A stretch of 64,000 bases of DNA, taken from Deltaproteobacteria bacterium (GTDB lineage: Bacteria > SAR324 > JACQKK01). Under the pieces are notes generated by a model. It worked only from the letters and a program-made list of their open reading frames with translations, searched no databases and was not told the DNA's origin. A program made the position numbers and the translations under genes. This document shows positions 1 to 9,593 of the stretch, piece after piece (position 1 is the first letter of the stretch; every line of letters starts with the position of its first letter). Location: positions 1 to 64,000 of the forward strand of contig JAOUEW010000009.1 of assembly GCA_029858505.1 (NCBI GenBank), read 5' to 3'.

Positions 1-251
1 GGGATAGTTTTTATCAGGTCAACTTTCACACCGCGGGGACCCATACCATCACCGTAAACAGCATGTCGGCTGATGTCGATCCCCAAACCTACACTGACAA
101 TATGTTTATGATGGTAACCGGAACCTGCACCGCAAACGGGGGAACCCTTGCGGACACCTGCACGGTGGCCACTACGGCGGCCAACACTGTGATTTACATC
201 CAGGTACACGATTTTTCTGCTGAAGGGGCCATCTTTACTCTTACCCCGTAA
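1..251 (+). CDS. C-terminal part of a PPC-type surface protein (5' end outside the window)
   Basis: The open frame enters from the left edge (codons from base 3) and stops at TAA 249-251. The 82 visible residues closely match the last domain of the lipoprotein at 6414..7190, including YQV, TAGTHTIT, GTCTANGG, the DTC cysteine and the NTVIYIQV strand. That fold resembles the bacterial pre-peptidase C-terminal (PPC) domain, a secreted beta-sandwich. Two cysteines about a dozen residues apart could form a disulfide. By analogy the missing N-terminus is probably a lipoprotein signal. Function unknown; paralogy is clear from sequence, surface location is inferred. Confidence 0.8.
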   Translation, partial: DSFYQVNFHTAGTHTITVNSMSADVDPQTYTDNMFMMVTGTCTANGGTLADTCTVATTAANTVIYIQVHDFSAEGAIFTLTP

Positions 252-327: not shown

Positions 328-540
328 GAGAGGAGCCACACCTTCCCCAAAAGCCCCCGCACTTAAATATTGCACAAAGAACTGCCCCCACACGCCCCAT
401 TCCCAACGCTGCCACATGGTTTTCTTATTTTATGCGCTCAAGTATTTATCTTTAGCGCTAAATATATGTTGTTTTATATCATAAGGTTGCTGGAATTTTT
501 TACAAACCGCACCCGATATGGTATCTTTTTGACTGGCTAG
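328..540. other. Intergenic, AT-rich, probable promoter region of the 644 gene
   Basis: No credible gene is seen. The stretch 410-490 is clearly AT-rich against its surroundings and holds a perfect 12-bp palindrome, TTTAGCGCTAAA, at 451..462. TATCTT at 522..527 lies at the same distance from the conserved leader as the TAGGAT box upstream of the 6414 paralogue, so it may be a -10 element. No 11-bp repeats like those at 6240 are seen here. Confidence 0.4.
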
Positions 541-643
541 GGGAGGGCTCCTTGAACCGGCATCGCTTGTTCGGGAAAGGTCTCAACTTGGGCGCGCCTG
601 ACACAAAAAACAGGCAACTGAAAAAACCCTAACGGAGATCATC
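541..643 (+). promoter_or_regulatory. Conserved leader shared with the 6414 lipoprotein gene
   Basis: These 103 bases align almost without gaps to 6310..6413. Shared blocks are GGGAGGnCTCCTTGAACC, the GGTCTC block, a small hairpin (GCCTG...CAGGC here, GCCTGT...ACAGGC in the other copy), and the CCTAAnGGAGATC ribosome-binding segment just before the ATG. Conservation across non-coding sequence with a preserved hairpin suggests a transcribed 5' UTR with a regulatory role. No known riboswitch class was recognised. Confidence 0.6.
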
Positions 644-2408: not shown

Positions 2409-3356
2409 GTGGTTCGAACTTCTTTCGAGAGCCCACGCCCCATGCCCACCGACGCCATCACCGGATCGTTCCGCGCGCTGCCCACCTTTTCCAACCTGGA
2501 TCAGCGGTTCCGGTTGAAGATGCGGGGGTTTGTAGACACCTTCATGCCGTCGTTCAATTTGGCCCTGATGGACAAAGCCAACCTAGACGCCCTGCGCAAA
2601 GACGGCATCTTTCCCCTGATGTTTTTTTTGGATTTTGAGTCGATGCCCTATTCTTTGCGGCAAACGTTTCAAGAGGTCGACTACGCCATCCAGCTGTTTC
2701 GCTTCAAAGGAGAGGACAATGGGGGAGACCGACTGCTGCTGAACATGGAAGGCACCATGCGGGGCGAGGAAGGATCGGGCAAGCCGGAGCATTTGTTTCA
2801 CGACCAGCACCAGGGGAAGAAACGGGTGCTGGCCAAAGCCCGCGTGGTGATGGCCCTGACCCGCCCCACGGCCCCGCCGGGCCAGCGGCAGGTGGCCAGC
2901 CTGCCCCAGGGGGCCAGCCTGCTGGCCGAACAACCTTGGGAGGAGCCCTATCCCTCGCCAGAGGAACTGGGACAGCCCCCTGCCGGGTGGCGCCGGGAGG
3001 GTGGCAAAGGAACGGCGGGAGTTCACTCGGTGGACGGGGTGTGGGGCATTCCCCACACCGACCCCAACCAGCACGTGAACGTGCTGAACTATATTATTGA
3101 AGCCGAAAACATGAACACCCGCCTGCTGCACGAGGCGGGGGTGCCTCCCCAGGCCCATCACCTGCGGCGGGGGCGCATGGTGTTTCGCAAGCCCTTCTTT
3201 GCGGGAGACACCTTTCGGGTGTCGGGGCAGTTGTTTTCCCGGGGGGGCAAAAGCATTCTGCTGTGTGGGTTTCACAAGGGCTCCGCCGATCAGGCCTTCG
3301 ACCCCCGTCCCTCGGTGGTCATCCGCCTGGAAGGCGAGCAAGAGAAGGGTGCGTAA
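2409..3356 (+). CDS. Hot-dog fold protein, probable acyl thioesterase/dehydratase type
   Basis: 315 residues from GTG 2409; ATG 2442 (MPTDAITGSF) is an alternative start. The C-terminal third contains DPNQHVNVLNYIIEAEN (about residue 220), resembling the D-x-x-x-H-V-N motif of hot-dog acyl-CoA/ACP thioesterases, followed by GRMVFRKPFFAGDTFRVSG, typical of hot-dog strand pairs. The length suggests a double hot-dog with an insertion (Gln/Pro-rich middle). No signal peptide, so probably cytoplasmic. Substrate unknown. It stands alone between repeat blocks; no operon partner is visible. Confidence 0.6.
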   Translation: MVRTSFESPRPMPTDAITGSFRALPTFSNLDQRFRLKMRGFVDTFMPSFNLALMDKANLDALRKDGIFPLMFFLDFESMPYSLRQTFQEVDYAIQLFRFKGEDNGGDRLLLNMEGTMRGEEGSGKPEHLFHDQHQGKKRVLAKARVVMALTRPTAPPGQRQVASLPQGASLLAEQPWEEPYPSPEELGQPPAGWRREGGKGTAGVHSVDGVWGIPHTDPNQHVNVLNYIIEAENMNTRLLHEAGVPPQAHHLRRGRMVFRKPFFAGDTFRVSGQLFSRGGKSILLCGFHKGSADQAFDPRPSVVIRLEGEQEKGA

Positions 3357-3506
3357 AGAGAAATAGAGAAATCGTAACATCTCCTTCAATCTTGTCCCCG
3401 CCATCCCCGCTACTCAAATCCCTCGGATATTGAATACCTCCAGTCGGCTTGTGAAGGCTAGACGAAAGCAAGTGCATCTCTCGCCGGACTCGATTTGTCC
3501 CCAACA

Positions 3507-3697
3507 GCACCCCTCCCCTGCCCTGCGGGCATCCCCTCCCCTTCGTGGAGGGGAATACAACTCGAAGCCGAAAAGTTATGTGCTTGCTTCCTTCCGGTTT
3601 CACTAACTGAACAAATGTAAAGATTAACCGGTGGATTCGAGTATTGTCCCTCCACGAAGGGGAGGGACGGGCGGCGCAAGCCGCCAGGGAGGGGTGC
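3507..3697. repeat. Family A palindromic repeat, tandem copy 1
   Basis: 191 bp from GCACCCCTCCCCTGCC to GGGAGGGGTGC. Each end folds: the left end has GCCCTGCGGGC, the right end has GGCGGCGCAAGCCGCC. Inside, CCCCTCCCCTTCGTGGAGGGG and GTCCCTCCACGAAGGGGAGGGAC flank an AT-richer core containing CTTGCTTCCTTCCGGTTTCA. By eye it is identical to the next copy, joined by the linker TTTACGGGAACAGCAACA (3698-3715). Confidence 0.9.
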
Positions 3698-3715
3698 TTT
3701 ACGGGAACAGCAACA

Positions 3716-3906
3716 GCACCCCTCCCCTGCCCTGCGGGCATCCCCTCCCCTTCGTGGAGGGGAATACAACTCGAAGCCGAAAAGTTATGTGCTTGCTTCC
3801 TTCCGGTTTCACTAACTGAACAAATGTAAAGATTAACCGGTGGATTCGAGTATTGTCCCTCCACGAAGGGGAGGGACGGGCGGCGCAAGCCGCCAGGGAG
3901 GGGTGC
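3716..3906. repeat. Family A palindromic repeat, tandem copy 2
   Basis: Apparently identical to 3507..3697 with a 209-bp period, which points to a recent tandem duplication or to active homogenisation. Confidence 0.9.
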
Positions 3907-3910
3907 TTTG

Positions 3911-4047
3911 GGGAATCACTCGAATCCGAAAAATAATGCGCCTGCTTCCGCCCAGTCTTTGTTTTCTGAACGGCTGAAGAGAATCACCGGTGGATGCGAG
4001 CCATTCCCCCCTCCCTAATTGGGGAGGGGGGCAGGGGTGGGTTGCCT
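3911..4047. repeat. Related repeat, variant core (family A-like)
   Basis: Shares CTCGAATCCGAAAA and GCTTCC with family A, but the other half (GAACGGCTGAAGAGAATCACCGGTGGATGCGAGCCATTCC, read in pieces) and the end CCCCCTCCCTAATTGGGGAGGGGG match instead the variant at 7550-7625. The rest of 4048-4202 holds no gene. AAGGAGGGG at about 4184-4194 is the ribosome-binding site of the next gene. Confidence 0.65.
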
Positions 4048-4202
4048 CATGGAAATGCCCAGCACGGGCAGGTCCCTAGGCTGTGGCATCATCAAAAGGT
4101 ATGTTTCGTATTTAAGGTTGCGTTGAAAGAAAAACAGGGATAATGTTTACGGGTCATGGCTTGGGTTCACGTTGAACTATATTTAAGGAGGGGGGAAATC
4201 TC

Positions 4203-6077
4203 TTGGTCGGTTTTTGTCGCATTTCTAAGCCTATTCTTTTGCTGTTGGCCCTGCTGGGGTTGGCAGGCGGGGTGTGTGCCCAGCAGGCAGGGCAGAGCGG
4301 GGGGGAACCCATTCCCCTGGTAGACCGCACCCAAATCACCAGCCAGCAAGTGGCGGTGCTGAAGGACCCGGCAGGCCTGTTCACATTCGCAGACGTTTCC
4401 AAGGCCAAGTTTACCCCCAGTGAAGAACGCGGTTTTAACTTTGGCACCAACGGGGGTGCCTTATGGTTTCGTTTTTCCGTGATTCACCCCAGTGAGGAAT
4501 CCTTTGCCCTGCTGGTGGACAACCCTCGGCTGGAGCAAGTGACATTTTTCCTGCGGATGGACAATGGAACCATCCAACGCATGGAATCCGGCGATGGGGT
4601 TCCCCTGGTCAAACGGCCTTTTCATTTCCGCGAAATTGCCTTTCCGCTCAAAATCACCAAAAGCCATTCGGGAGAAGTGTATCTCCGGGTACAAACATCC
4701 TCTCCCATTTCGCTGCCTTTGCGGCTGATGACCCTGGAGACCCTCCACCGGGAATCCCGCTTTGCCGAGGTTTTTCTGTCTGGCCTGCTGGGGGCCATGG
4801 CGTTGCTGTCCCTGGCGGCTTTACTGGCCTTTGCTTGGCGGCCATCTCCACTGTTGGGGGCCGTGGCCACCATGGCCCTGGTGCAATCCTTCTATTCGTC
4901 CGTTCAAGACGGTTTGGCTTCGGAATACTTTTGGCCAACCCGCCCAGACATGATCATCCGAGGAAAATATCTGCTGATCGCCTTCCTGGCGCCGGTGGCC
5001 CTGAATTACTGCCATAAGGCCATGGATGTGCCGAAACATTTTCCGCGGATCAATGTGCTCTTTTGGGGGCTCATTGTTTCAGGCCCGGTCATCTCGCTGT
5101 CGTCGCTTGTCATCCCCGGGTTCTGGGTCTATCGGATGGCATCGGTACAATCAGGCGCCGTGGCGGGGCTGCTGCTGATCCTGATTCCCTGGGCCTGGAT
5201 GCGGGGCAACCCAGCCGGGCGGGTGTTGTTCTGGTCCGGCTTTCCGCTCATCGCCGCGGCGTTGATTGTGGTGTCTCATGCGTTTACGCTGCCCCTCCAC
5301 CCTGCCGTGGTGATGCACTTCTACAAAATGGCCTATTTGGTGTTTATGTTCACCCAGTTGGCGTGGGCCTTTGGCCAGTCGAATAAAACCAAACACCCCA
5401 CCCTGTTGACCCATACGGAAGATCCGAATCGGTTCATCCCCGAGGCCCAGGGAAAAACCAACTTGATGTACACCCTGGGGCAGTTTCACGTGGTTCGAAA
5501 GGGAAAGCCCGTGCGCTTCACCAGCCGGGGGGTTTCACAAATTCAGATCATGCTGGCCATGATTGCGGCGGGAGGAGCAGCAGGCATCTCCCGGAGAGAC
5601 TTGGTGGACCAGTTGTGGCCAGAAGACGAAGGGGACACCTCGGAAACCAGCCTTCGCACCGCCCTCTACCGCCTGCGCCAACTGATTGGCAAAGAAGCCC
5701 TGACCATCAGCGATCAACGCTACATGCTGTCTTCCGATGTGGTGTGGGAGGATAGCCAGCACTTTGAAGCCGCCGCCCGGGCTGTGCTCTCCGGTTCAGG
5801 CTCCGGGCCAGACCCCCTGGCCGCGCTGAACCTGTACGGGGGAGATTTCCTGCCCGGCTTTCAGGCACCTGCCATCGTTTACCGCCGGGAAACCCTGCGG
5901 GGGTTGTTCCAGCGGCTGGTGCTTCACGCCGCCGACCAACTCGCCGCTCAGGGGGATTACCCCGCCGCCCTGGCCGTGGTGGAGCAAGCCCTCGCCCGCA
6001 GCCAGCCCAACGAAAGGTTGTCTGAAAAAATCATTCAACTGAAGGAAAAACGGGCCGCCCAGACCCCCATCCACTGA
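4203..6077 (+). CDS. Membrane-bound regulator: 7TMR-DISM receptor fused to SARP/BTAD DNA-binding output
   Basis: 624 residues from TTG, preceded by AAGGAGGGG. Order: signal peptide (cleaved near VCAQQ), an extracellular beta-sandwich of 7TMR-DISMED2 type (about 45-175; LWFRFSVIHPSEE, LLVDNPRLEQVTFFL), seven hydrophobic segments (about 185-400), then a cytoplasmic winged helix (about 420-515; RRDLVDQLWPEDEGDTSETSLRTALYRLRQLIG, read in pieces, matches the OmpR/SARP fold) and a helical BTAD-like domain (to the end; YGGDFLPGF, YPAALAVVEQAL). Known 7TMR-DISM proteins usually carry kinase or GGDEF outputs. Here the output is a transcription factor, so it probably reads an extracellular ligand and regulates DNA directly. 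Likely target: 6240..6296. Confidence 0.8.
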   Translation: MVGFCRISKPILLLLALLGLAGGVCAQQAGQSGGEPIPLVDRTQITSQQVAVLKDPAGLFTFADVSKAKFTPSEERGFNFGTNGGALWFRFSVIHPSEESFALLVDNPRLEQVTFFLRMDNGTIQRMESGDGVPLVKRPFHFREIAFPLKITKSHSGEVYLRVQTSSPISLPLRLMTLETLHRESRFAEVFLSGLLGAMALLSLAALLAFAWRPSPLLGAVATMALVQSFYSSVQDGLASEYFWPTRPDMIIRGKYLLIAFLAPVALNYCHKAMDVPKHFPRINVLFWGLIVSGPVISLSSLVIPGFWVYRMASVQSGAVAGLLLILIPWAWMRGNPAGRVLFWSGFPLIAAALIVVSHAFTLPLHPAVVMHFYKMAYLVFMFTQLAWAFGQSNKTKHPTLLTHTEDPNRFIPEAQGKTNLMYTLGQFHVVRKGKPVRFTSRGVSQIQIMLAMIAAGGAAGISRRDLVDQLWPEDEGDTSETSLRTALYRLRQLIGKEALTISDQRYMLSSDVVWEDSQHFEAAARAVLSGSGSGPDPLAALNLYGGDFLPGFQAPAIVYRRETLRGLFQRLVLHAADQLAAQGDYPAALAVVEQALARSQPNERLSEKIIQLKEKRAAQTPIH

Positions 6078-6239
6078 CGCATATATGACCTAAAAATACG
6101 GTCATATTCCTCCCTTACCTTCGCGCTTTTTGGTAATTTCCACGCCTCCGCAAGTTTTTTTTCTCATTCGTGCGTCCGATATTATTCATATTTATGAATT
6201 TTTTATCCTGTTTTATCAATATTATAAATAAATATTTTT

Positions 6240-6296
6240 CGTGTCACGTTCGTGTCACGCTCATGTCACGGTCGTGTCACGCCCGTGTGTTAGGAT
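6240..6296 (+). promoter_or_regulatory. Tandem 11-bp direct repeats (SARP-type operator) with -10 box
   Basis: Four consecutive 11-mers: CGTGTCACGTT, CGTGTCACGCT, CATGTCACGGT and CGTGTCACGCC, then a degenerate fifth, CGTGTGTTAGG (6284-6294). TAGGAT at 6291..6296 can serve as the -10. SARP regulators are known to bind heptamer direct repeats at 11-bp spacing just upstream of the -10, and the upstream neighbour encodes a SARP-type output. The upstream 6078-6239 is very AT-rich. Assignment of the regulator to this site is inference. Confidence 0.75.
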
Positions 6297-6309
6297 TTGC
6301 CCAGCTTTG

Positions 6310-6413
6310 GGGAGGACTCCTTGAACCAGCGTCGTCTGTTCTGGGGGGGTCTCGTCCTGGGCAGAGCCTGTCACTGAAACAGGCATCTTCAAAAAATCCT
6401 AAAGGAGATCGTC
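6310..6413 (+). promoter_or_regulatory. Conserved leader of the 6414 lipoprotein gene
   Basis: Second copy of the leader at 541..643, with the hairpin GCCTGT...ACAGGC (6366-6384) and the CCTAAAGGAGATCGTC ribosome-binding block ending at the ATG. It lies directly downstream of the 11-bp repeats and the putative -10, so it is probably the 5' UTR. Confidence 0.6.
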
Positions 6414-7190
6414 ATGAATAAACTCACGAGCTTGTTACTGGGCCTGGCAGTGCTGGCCCTGGCGGGATGTGGTGGAGGTGGTGGAGGAGGAGGTGGAGGT
6501 GGTGGAGGTGGTAGCGTACCGTTGGTCAACCAAGGCGCCACTGGTGCTGGAGGGCCCATTGTGCTAACGCTAAACTCAGTTTATTCGGGTACGGTGGCTC
6601 CTACCGGGGTAAGTTACTATCAGATCACCTATCCCACTGCGGGGACTTATCTGATTGGCTTGACTGGCATGACCACAAATGCAGACATTGTCACCTATAC
6701 CGATAACATGTTTACCACGCTCACCGGAACTTGCACGGCAATGTTGGGGTGGTTTAATGATAACTGTTCGGTGACCACCGCGGCAGCCAACACCGTGATT
6801 TACGTCAAGGTGAAGGATATGGCAACTTTTGGTAATTCCTTCAAAATCGGTTCCCATGTCAGCGAAGGAACTGTCGGTGCTGGTGGGCCCATTGCGCTTA
6901 CAAAAGGCACAGCCCATGCGGGTACGGTGGGTGCTGTGCAATCTAGTCTCTATCAGGTGACCTATGCGACAGCGGGGACGTACACCATTACCCTGAACGG
7001 CCTAACGGGAGATGCCGACCCCTCAACCTTCACCGACAATTTTTTTACCACGCCCACTGGCACCTGCACGGCAAACGGAGGAACCACGGCGGACACCTGT
7101 TCGGTGACCACCGCGGCGGCCAACACCGTGATTTACATCCAGGTGCAAGATTGGTCGGGTACAGGGGTATCCTTTAACCTAACCCCGTAA
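6414..7190 (+). CDS. Surface lipoprotein: poly-Gly tether and two PPC-like domains
   Basis: 258 residues. Signal MNKLTSLLLGLAVLALAGC with lipobox, then 14 consecutive Gly, then two ~100-residue repeats with the pattern GAGGPI, Y-Q-(V/I)-T-Y, AGTYxIxLxGxT, TDNxFTT, GTCTA, a second Cys and AANTVIYxxV. The pattern resembles PPC domains of secreted proteins; each repeat has two cysteines that could be disulfide-linked. The last repeat is the paralogue of the gene at 1..251. Probably lipid-anchored, with its domains held off the membrane by the Gly tether. It is the nearest gene downstream of the receptor-SARP protein and its putative operator. Confidence 0.85.
   Translation: MNKLTSLLLGLAVLALAGCGGGGGGGGGGGGGGSVPLVNQGATGAGGPIVLTLNSVYSGTVAPTGVSYYQITYPTAGTYLIGLTGMTTNADIVTYTDNMFTTLTGTCTAMLGWFNDNCSVTTAAANTVIYVKVKDMATFGNSFKIGSHVSEGTVGAGGPIALTKGTAHAGTVGAVQSSLYQVTYATAGTYTITLNGLTGDADPSTFTDNFFTTPTGTCTANGGTTADTCSVTTAAANTVIYIQVQDWSGTGVSFNLTP
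6471..6512 (+). repeat. GGT/GGA trinucleotide repeat coding for poly-glycine
   Basis: Fourteen Gly codons, all GGT or GGA, directly after the lipid-modified Cys codon. Slippage here would change tether length without shifting frame. Confidence 0.9.
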
Positions 7191-7233
7191 TAGCGCCAAG
7201 CAATCTTATTTCTCTTGCCGTTCATTCCTTTCC

Positions 7234-7266
7234 AGCCCGTGGGTAACCCCCACGGGCTTTTTTTTT
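7234..7266 (+). terminator. Rho-independent terminator after the 6414 gene
   Basis: AGCCCGTGGG pairs with CCCACGGGCT and nine or so T follow. Near copy of the terminator at 295..327. Confidence 0.9.
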
Positions 7267-7325
7267 GAGAAACGGCATCCCCACCCGTAAAACACCTCAC
7301 CCCTGCCCTTCGGGCTTCCCCAACA

Positions 7326-7667
7326 GCACCCCTCCCCTGCCTGCTTCGCAGGCATCCCCTCCCCTTCGTGGAGGGGAACAACTCGCATCCGAAAAGTTAT
7401 GTGCTTGCTTCCTTCCGGTTTCACTAACTGAACAGATGAAAAGAATAGCCGATGGCTTCGAGCATTTGGACCTCACCCCCCGCCCCCCTCTCCCGAAGAG
7501 AGGGGGAGTTCAAAGGCGTTAGGGCGTTGCTTGCTTCCGTTCAGTCTTCACCATCCGAACGGCTGAAGAGAATCACCGGTGGATGCGAGCCATTCCCCCC
7601 TCCCTGATTGGGGAGGGGGGCAGGGGGGAGAGGTGCTGTTGGGATGCCCGCAGGGCAGGGGTGGGGT
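7326..7667. repeat. Composite of family A repeat halves and a CCTCACCCC-type element
   Basis: Starts with a family A left end (GCACCCCTCCCCTGCC, hairpin GCCTGCTTCGCAGGC) and core. At 7470-7513 it is interrupted by GACCTCACCCC...CCCTCTCCCGAAGAGAGGG (half of the element at 47736), then continues with the variant core seen at 3911 and ends in GGCAGGGGTGGGGTG. Looks like nested insertion or recombination between repeats. Confidence 0.7.
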
Positions 7668-7774
7668 GCGTTGGGGTTGTGGGGCTGGGGGTCCTCGTGT
7701 TACAAAATGGCAGCGGGTCTGCCAAAGCGGCAAAGCCCCCGCGTCTGGGATACTCCACCAGCCCACCGGTGCCC

Positions 7775-8104
7775 ATGCCCCCCAAAAAGCCAACCCCATC
7801 GGCCAAACCCGGCCCCAAGAAATCCGCCGCCCCAACGCCCGCCACGGATGGCGATCAAATTTCGTTGTTCGCCAGCGAGCCCTCTCCCCAGGAGCGCCCC
7901 AAAGCCAAGCCCGTGCCGCCGCCCCCCGCCTTATCAGAGCCGCCGCCAGAAAGAACAGGCCCCCAGGTGACCCAATTGGGGGTGAACGCCAAGGGCTATT
8001 GGAAGGTCACGGGGCAGGGCAAACCGGTGGCGTTAGAAGAAGAAGATTGGATAAAAGAACTCAGCCGGGCCCTGAACCCCAAAAGCAGTGAACGCGGCAA
8101 TTAA
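7775..8104 (+). CDS. Small proline-rich protein upstream of phoH
   Basis: 109 residues from ATG 7775 (MPPKKPTPSAKPGPKK). The first half is Pro/Lys/Ala-rich and probably disordered. The second half is more ordered (TQLGVNAKGYWKVTGQGKPV, EEEDWIKELSRAL). It ends 12 bases before phoH and reads the same way, so the two are probably co-transcribed. The frame is open further upstream into the repeat, but that part reads as repeat sequence and was left out. No family recognised. Confidence 0.55.
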   Translation: MPPKKPTPSAKPGPKKSAAPTPATDGDQISLFASEPSPQERPKAKPVPPPPALSEPPPERTGPQVTQLGVNAKGYWKVTGQGKPVALEEEDWIKELSRALNPKSSERGN

Positions 8105-8116
8105 CCCTTCGGCCCC

Positions 8117-9430
8117 ATGACTCCTGTTCGATACGTGCTGGACACCAACGTGGTGTTGGTGGACCCCGATTCCGTGCTGGCCTTTCCCGGCGGAGAGGTG
8201 GTGATCCCCATTGTGGTGATCGAGGAAATAGACCAGTTCAAGGGAGACATGACCGAAACGGGCCGCAACGCCCGGTTGGTGGCCAAAACCATCGACGCCT
8301 ACCGAACCCAGGGGAACTTGTCCAAGGGGCTCACCCAACCGAACGGCTCGCTGCTGCGGGTGCAAATATGGAACCGGGATCACACCGACTTCCCCCGAGA
8401 GCTGGACCTGAAGAAGGCCTCGAACCGGGTGCTGGCTACCGCCTTGCAAATGAAGCGGGAAGACGCCGTGCGCACCGTACTGGTCAGCCAAGACACCAAC
8501 CTGCGCATTCGGGCCAACGCCCTGGGGCTAGAGGCCGTGGCCTACGAAGGAGAGCACCGAGACGCCTCTGAAATTTACCAGGGCTTCGTGGAACGAACGG
8601 CCGATGCCCGTGAGATGGAGCAGATGGCCCAGCAGCGCCCCTTGAGGCTGGAGGGAACCTTCTTCCCCAACCAGGGGCTGATTGTCTCCGAGCGGGGGAA
8701 TGCCGCCCGCTGGCGGGTGTTTCGCTACCACGCCAAAGAGCAGGGGTTTCTGCCCGCCAAGGCCCGCCCGGAAGGGGTGTGGAACCTGATTCCCCGCAAC
8801 CCCCAGCAAGAGCTGGCCCTGGACCTGCTGCTGGACCCGGAGTTGTCGGTGGTGACCCTGCTGGGCAAGGCTGGCACGGGCAAGACCCTGTTGGCCCTGG
8901 CGGCGGGTCTGCAAATGATGATGGAAGACAACACCTATACCAAAATGCTGGTCAGCCGCCCCATCTTTCCCATGGGGCGTGACATTGGCTACCTGCCCGG
9001 TGCGGTGGAGGAAAAACTAGAACCCTGGATGCAGCCGATTTTTGACAACCTGGAGTTTCTCATCAATTCTCCCGTGTCGAAAAAAACCTCGCTAAGGGGT
9101 TACCAGGCCTTGATTGACCAGGGGCTGCTGAACATCGAACCCCTCACCTACATCCGGGGGCGCTCCATTCCCAAGCAATTCATGATTGTGGACGAGGCCC
9201 AAAACCTCACCCCCCACGAAATCAAAACCATCATCACCCGGGTGGGGGTGGGCACCAAAATCGTCCTCACTGGCGATGTGTACCAGATTGACAACCCCTA
9301 CGTAGACAGCGTGTCCAATGGGCTGTCTCACGTGGTGGAAAAATTCAAAGACCAGCCCCTGGCGGGGCATGCCACCCTGCAGCGGGGAGAGCGCTCGGCC
9401 CTGGCCGAAATGGCGGCCAATATTTTGTAG
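8117..9430 (+). CDS. phoH: PIN-PhoH family ATPase/ribonuclease (PhoH2 type)
   Basis: 437 residues. An N-terminal PIN domain (VRYVLDTNVVLVDP at residues 4-17, IPIVVIEEIDQFK, acidic residues of the nuclease site) is followed by the PhoH ATPase domain with Walker A GKAGTGKT near residue 253 and Walker B FMIVDEAQN near 355-362. The family is known as an ATP-dependent RNA helicase/ribonuclease in RNA turnover, cytoplasmic. Length and domain order match PhoH2 (YlaK-like) proteins. Preceded by a small proline-rich ORF in the same direction. Confidence 0.93.
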   Translation: MTPVRYVLDTNVVLVDPDSVLAFPGGEVVIPIVVIEEIDQFKGDMTETGRNARLVAKTIDAYRTQGNLSKGLTQPNGSLLRVQIWNRDHTDFPRELDLKKASNRVLATALQMKREDAVRTVLVSQDTNLRIRANALGLEAVAYEGEHRDASEIYQGFVERTADAREMEQMAQQRPLRLEGTFFPNQGLIVSERGNAARWRVFRYHAKEQGFLPAKARPEGVWNLIPRNPQQELALDLLLDPELSVVTLLGKAGTGKTLLALAAGLQMMMEDNTYTKMLVSRPIFPMGRDIGYLPGAVEEKLEPWMQPIFDNLEFLINSPVSKKTSLRGYQALIDQGLLNIEPLTYIRGRSIPKQFMIVDEAQNLTPHEIKTIITRVGVGTKIVLTGDVYQIDNPYVDSVSNGLSHVVEKFKDQPLAGHATLQRGERSALAEMAANIL

Positions 9431-9593
9431 GAAATAAAAACATCCTTCACCGGCTTCACGCCCCATCTCTCCAGATTCTTAAAATAATCTTCCTTTTTGG
9501 TTGATTTTCAGGGCGGTGTTTAGTAAGAGATGGAAACTGTTGCCCCCGTGGTGACAAAATATTTTCCCATCCTATTTCTTTCCGGAGGAACCC

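Follow-up and report, generated by a model that had tools for sequence, protein, structure and literature searches.

We propose that four direct repeats at exact 11-bp spacing in the genome of a SAR324-cluster marine bacterium are very probably the operator of a membrane-bound SARP regulator of the one-component type, which is encoded immediately upstream of them and would activate lipoprotein genes. The window, i.e. the whole stretch of DNA analysed, comprises 64,000 nucleotides (positions 1 to 64,000 of contig JAOUEW010000009.1, assembly GCA_029858505.1), in which the repeats lie between a gene for a 624-amino-acid 7TMR-DISM receptor with a C-terminal SARP domain, i.e. an OmpR-type winged helix plus BTAD (4203-6077, plus strand, TTG start), and a lipoprotein gene (6414-7190, plus strand). 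The best reading of these sequences is a one-component SARP system anchored in the membrane, with a regulon of three lipoprotein promoters: the receptor would sense its signal via the DISMED2 domain, the SARP protein would bind the repeats, and the effect on the lipoprotein genes would be activation rather than repression. The same type of site precedes two other lipoprotein genes, so that the regulator probably controls a handful of proteins that are presumably located at the cell surface and turns them on.

The original prediction described the array as GTGTCAC recurring four times at exactly 11-bp spacing. Spacing and copy number hold, but only three of the four copies are exact, the third being ATGTCAC, and the unit is better described as the 9-mer CGTGTCACG. 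Positions 6235-6296 read TTTTT-CGTGTCACG-TT-CGTGTCACG-CT-CATGTCACG-GT-CGTGTCACG-CC-CGTGTGTTAGGAT, so that CGTGTCACG-N2 is repeated four times on the plus strand with an exact 11-bp period from 6240 to 6281 (copies at 6240-6248, 6251-6259, 6262-6270 and 6273-6281, of which the third, CATGTCACG, differs from CGTGTCACG by one change); exact TGTCACG starts at 6242, 6253, 6264 and 6275. Because the 2-bp spacers vary (TT, CT, GT), the array is a phased site rather than the product of simple duplication in tandem. A degenerate fifth half-copy, CGTGTGTT, at 6284-6291 merges into TAGGAT (6291-6296), and the TGn in front of this hexamer points to an extended -10 element (TGTTAGGAT, TGnTAnnnT, 6288-6296, plus strand). 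The fourth repeat occupies the position of the -35 box, and no sigma70-like -35/-10 pair was found on the plus strand. Transcription of the gene at 6414 would be expected to start near 6303.

The repeats are real and non-random. The window has three occurrences of TGTCAC-N5-TGTCAC with at most one mismatch, where 0.15 would be expected; none of 100 shuffles reached this count, and four identical 6-mers at one spacing (7-30) were not met in any of 60 Markov-randomised windows, in which the maximum run was 2-3. Across the genome (2.79 Mb), an exact TGTCAC pair is found only in the array and at one other place, and the reversed control gave none. An Rfam scan gave no match in the array region, the sole match in the window being a tRNA. 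No 11-bp repeats were seen upstream of the regulator gene, and autoregulation of that gene was discarded on this ground.

In published SARP promoters, direct repeats stand 11 or 22 bp apart with the 3' repeat 8 bp from the -10 element (PMC10936776), and SARP protomers lie side by side across the -35 region, touching sigma region 4 (PMC10936776, PMC10972967). The array has this geometry, as had been predicted: the 11-bp spacing is exact, the -35 position is overlapped, and TAGGAT starts 9 bp after the end of the last 9-mer, or 10 bp after the last CAC, the distance originally given. By this analogy, SARP protomers may sit next to one another where the -35 box is missing, one per 11-bp helical turn and all on one side of the DNA, and may bring RNA polymerase to the extended -10 element TGTTAGGAT. 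The lipoprotein gene at 6414 would thereby be turned on, along with two other lipoprotein genes that carry the same type of site.

The prediction of a SARP fusion gene next to the repeats was borne out by profile and structure comparisons. The receptor is laid out as a signal peptide (residues about 1-27), a periplasmic DISMED2 domain (48-177), a seven-transmembrane (7TM) domain (191-384) and the SARP domain (418-624, encoded at 5454-6077 on the plus strand), the recognition helix of which includes SLRTALYRLRQLIG. 7TMR-DISMED2 (2.6e-28) and 7TMR-DISM_7TM (2.4e-12), the pair that defines 7TMR-DISM receptors, both exceed the Pfam cut-off. An AlphaFold2 model of the 207 residues 418-624, built from an alignment with 33 relatives, has a predicted local distance difference test score (pLDDT) of 94.8, and its six highest-ranking Foldseek matches are Streptomyces AfsR and mycobacterial EmbR, matched over the whole domain, with E values of 5e-8 to 8e-6. 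OmpR/PhoB-family DNA-binding domains follow, over about 86 residues only, and the domains of ToxR, TcpP and CadC are also among the matches. The family profile matches AfsR over the whole domain (E 1.4e-21). The model thus predicts an AfsR/EmbR-type SARP fold, a winged helix followed by BTAD helices, for the C-terminal domain. T88 and R92 of AfsR make base contacts in the AfsR-promoter structure (PMC10936776), and in the profile-to-AfsR and family alignments the T and R of LRTALYRLR align with them. For the full-length protein, an AlphaFold2 model based on three sequences was of low quality (pLDDT 51) and served solely for the count of seven helices. A topology of signal peptide, external DISMED2 domain and seven helices would place the SARP domain in the cytoplasm, where the periplasmic sensor and the transmembrane helices would hold it. 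No further SARP gene of the AfsR/EmbR type was found in the genome, and of the 52 genomes of the class only 7 carry any.

The gene that follows the array encodes a lipoprotein, as predicted, with 258 amino acids, a lipobox LAGC, a glycine-rich linker and two weak PPC-like repeats. A scan of the 2.79-Mb genome with the two-unit pattern (at most three mismatches) identified, apart from the array, only two convincing strong sites, both upstream of lipoprotein genes, so that the proposal to look for further CGTGTCACNNN repeats in front of such genes was rewarded twice. The first, at C4:486357 (minus strand), reads CATGTCACGTTCGTGTCACG, with CATGTCACGTTCGTGTCACGCCCGTGTGTTACTTTAT upstream of a 992-amino-acid lipoprotein with Big_2 and Kelch repeats; the second, at C6:90658, reads CGTTTCACGTTCGTGTCACG, with CGTTTCACGTTCGTGTCACGCACCCTGTGGTAGATT upstream of a lipoprotein of 169 amino acids. 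The operator ends 9 and 10 bp from the -10 element at these two sites, and TGnTAnnnT is present at all three operators in matching position, the hexamer beginning 10 or 11 bp past the last CAC. As at most about 8% of sampled open reading frames match a generous lipobox pattern, the probability of finding both additional sites in front of lipoprotein genes by chance can be put at about 0.006, although the sample of reading frames behind this estimate is small. No lipoprotein gene was seen at C1:46370 or at the other one-mismatch sites of the genome. The stretch around C6:90658 has an identical duplicate on C11, at identical coordinates (89158-92177), and the assembly therefore appears to contain a redundant copy. 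All three targets are lipoprotein genes, and the classical SARP role, control of an antibiotic gene cluster, was not encountered among them. The original notion of a self-contained unit needs amending: regulator, operator and target are supported, but only one of the three operators is on the contig of the regulator, the other two being elsewhere.

Proteins fusing a 7TM domain to a SARP domain were found only in this genome (one) and in that of a sister genus, Deltaproteobacteria bacterium 8_1_Oct_SF_Bin72 (G009; two); a single-protein search of the named genomes gave no relatives, whereas an alignment-based search did. On one G009 contig (L046), a 7TM-SARP gene (207-2282) is followed by TGTGAAC three times at 11 bp (2453-2482; from 2453, TTGTGAACATTTTGTGAACTTCATGTGAACGG) and by a gene (2640-7355) for a 1571-amino-acid lipoprotein with Big_2 and PKD domains, the Big_2 region of which can be aligned to its counterpart in the C4 target (37% identity, 2e-33). 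The order of regulator, 11-bp repeats and lipoprotein is thus preserved although the heptamer has diverged. Elsewhere in G009, at about 1490-1600 of L153 (contig C178), an 11-mer tandem array (TGTGAACACGC / TGTGAGTGCGC) has SARP-type-like heptamers in a non-promoter position; it was rejected as an operator, since it apparently lies between convergent genes, and was treated as a minisatellite. TGTCAC pairs in G008 and G006 were likewise set aside, as no SARP or lipoprotein gene was seen beside either of them and that in G008 is beside a tRNA-like stretch.

Beyond SAR324, TGT[CG]A pairs in 57 SARP-bearing loci occur 12 times at 11 bp and 0-5 times at each other spacing from 7 to 21, although several of the 12 overlap within one array and some lie far from the SARP gene. 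A motif-free scan for at least three copies returned L089, whose DNA is that of L046, together with L099 and a single unrelated place. Three unrelated SARP genes have 11-bp heptamers just downstream: L117, where TGTGAC occurs three times, followed by genes for an FG-GAP protein and a PKD lipoprotein; L099 (TGTGATC); and L095 (TGTGACC), the genome of which holds a second TGTGACCGATCTGTGAC upstream of a thioredoxin-like gene, with TGTGGTATG behind it as at the first. All SARP-adjoining arrays (L046/L089, L099, L095, L117) are downstream of the SARP gene, on the same strand and within about 360 bp. L099, from a Desulfovibrionales metagenome-assembled genome, has tandem SARP-domain genes (3529-6807 and 7115-9490) with five TGTGAYC at 11 bp between them.

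The system resembles AfsR and the afs box of Streptomyces coelicolor in its OmpR-type winged helix and BTAD fold, in its 11-bp direct repeats (afs unit CGTT(T/C)ATCGNN, here CGTGTCACGNN; PMC10972967, PMC10936776), in a final repeat that stands a few bp from the -10 element in place of the -35 box, and in retaining the base-contact residues T88 and R92 (PMC10936776). Unlike AfsR, a cytoplasmic NOD-TPR protein of antibiotic synthesis, the SARP domain here is C-terminal on a 7TM receptor with lipoprotein targets, the host belongs to SAR324, and the repeats number four rather than two. With 7TMR-DISM receptors the protein shares the DISMED2 sensor and the 7TM domain. The customary outputs of such receptors are kinases, cyclases and phosphatases. 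A DNA-binding output of the ChiS family has been documented for them (PMC8092284), and no paper found in our literature search mentions 7TMR-DISM together with SARP. Like ToxR, TcpP and CadC, the protein would be a one-component regulator, a single membrane protein that senses in the periplasm and carries an OmpR-type winged helix in the cytoplasm; unlike these, it is polytopic, and its SARP domain is C-terminal.

Several observations weigh against the assignment of the repeats to the SARP receptor. In the regulator, Trans_reg_C and BTAD remain below the Pfam cut-off (for the SARP domain alone, BTAD scores 18.3 of 22.1 bits and Trans_reg_C 22.0 of 26.2 bits), a cut-off that is a library convention and not a criterion of the SARP family, and its BTAD is shorter than that of its relatives; the relative L044 clears Pfam BTAD with 57 bits. 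No repeats occur on the 8.1-kb contig that bears the other 7TM-SARP gene of G009, so that the expectation that repeats are kept wherever the regulator is kept fails in one relative, where one of two such genes has them. Most of the SARP genes examined have no downstream array, and the TGTGA motif of the spacing survey was picked after L046 had been seen.

To these must be added that the array fits the enterobacterial PHO box. The consensus of this box is TGTCAY-N5-TGTCAY, with a period of 11 bp and a distance of some 10 bp to the -10 element, and its agreement with the array in core, spacing and distance makes it a serious rival: the repeats could be a double PHO box for a PhoB-like regulator of the OmpR family, with the lipoproteins part of the phosphate-starvation response and the SARP gene adjacent by chance. 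The genome does encode a PhoB-like regulator (C4:861633), in a pstS-phoB-phoR operon (L215), and a site of 11-bp repeats is common to PhoP and AfsR in Streptomyces (PMC10972967). The box (at most two mismatches) is absent, however, upstream of both phosphate operons, pstS-phoBR (L215) and pstCAB-phoU (L167), and this led us to reject it as the preferred explanation. Moreover, the strong sites genome-wide front lipoproteins only, and the sister-genus array in the equivalent place, TGTGAAC, is not PHO-like. Phosphate operons without the box and a diverged G009 array make control by PhoB unlikely, albeit not impossible.

Somewhat less probable still is that a different OmpR-type or an unrelated regulator acts on the repeats. 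OmpR-family proteins likewise bind direct repeats of 10-11 bp, and their domains are the nearest folds to our model after AfsR and EmbR; yet the genome has only two response regulators with a full-length match to the PhoB profile, and the recurrent genetic linkage, in several lineages, is to SARP genes. That the repeats are functionless, arising by chance or as a slippage-born minisatellite, is hardly credible, for although slippage can create tandem 11-mers, as in the C178 array of G009, a conserved 9-bp core with variable 2-bp spacers is not a slippage product, and two other copies, at matching distance to an extended -10 element, both front lipoprotein genes.

The surroundings of the target gene show further features. 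Its 5' leader (6297-6413, plus strand) is homologous to the leader (540-643) of the related lipoprotein gene at 644, which was considered as a second target in the window and dismissed, as its leader is without repeats. A 5' leader of 90-110 nucleotides with 75-78% identity, ending in a GGAGATC-TCATG-like start region, is common to at least four paralogous lipoprotein genes (window 540-643 and 6309-6413, L185 1439-1527, L171 263-344); among these, the operator is present only at the gene that adjoins the regulator. The shared leader could reflect paralogy alone or a common leader RNA element. The 6414 protein is related to a paralogous family of lipoproteins or surface proteins with PPC-like repeats (17 genome matches), members of which are found at window 1-251 (cut by the contig start), C5:323, C4:262366, C4:567235 and C2:14377. 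Straight after its lipobox Cys runs a stretch of some 14 glycines (6465-6515) encoded by GGN repeats, and the gene is followed by a terminator hairpin (7234-7258, plus strand). In the intergenic DNA, a sequence of about 200 bp is tandemly duplicated at about 3500-3910, and pieces resembling it lie at 2060-2350 and 7290-7680; this family is rich in CCCCTCCCC/GGGGAGGGG and dispersed over other intergenic spaces.

To our knowledge, nearly all known SARP regulators are actinomycete proteins that activate antibiotic genes from the cytoplasm. Here a SARP domain is joined directly to a membrane receptor of seven helices in a bacterium of the SAR324 cluster, and its probable operator and three lipoprotein targets can be read from the sequence. 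We lean, if only slightly, towards a wider generalization, in which SARP receptors that are polytopic and embedded in the membrane (7TMR-DISM-SARP) would form a class that directly controls lipoproteins with Ig-like, Kelch or PPC-like domains via a TGTSANC code at 11 bp, and in which this operator type would be common to SARPs across Proteobacteria and related phyla, co-diverging with the recognition helix (TTxxRLR with TGTGA, TALYRLR with TGTCA). If true, this would provide a DNA motif for locating SARP operators outside actinomycetes and an example of a polytopic membrane protein serving as a transcription factor, which could be tested in a heterologous reporter, and it would offer a handle on the purpose of 7TM sensors and lipoproteins in SAR324.
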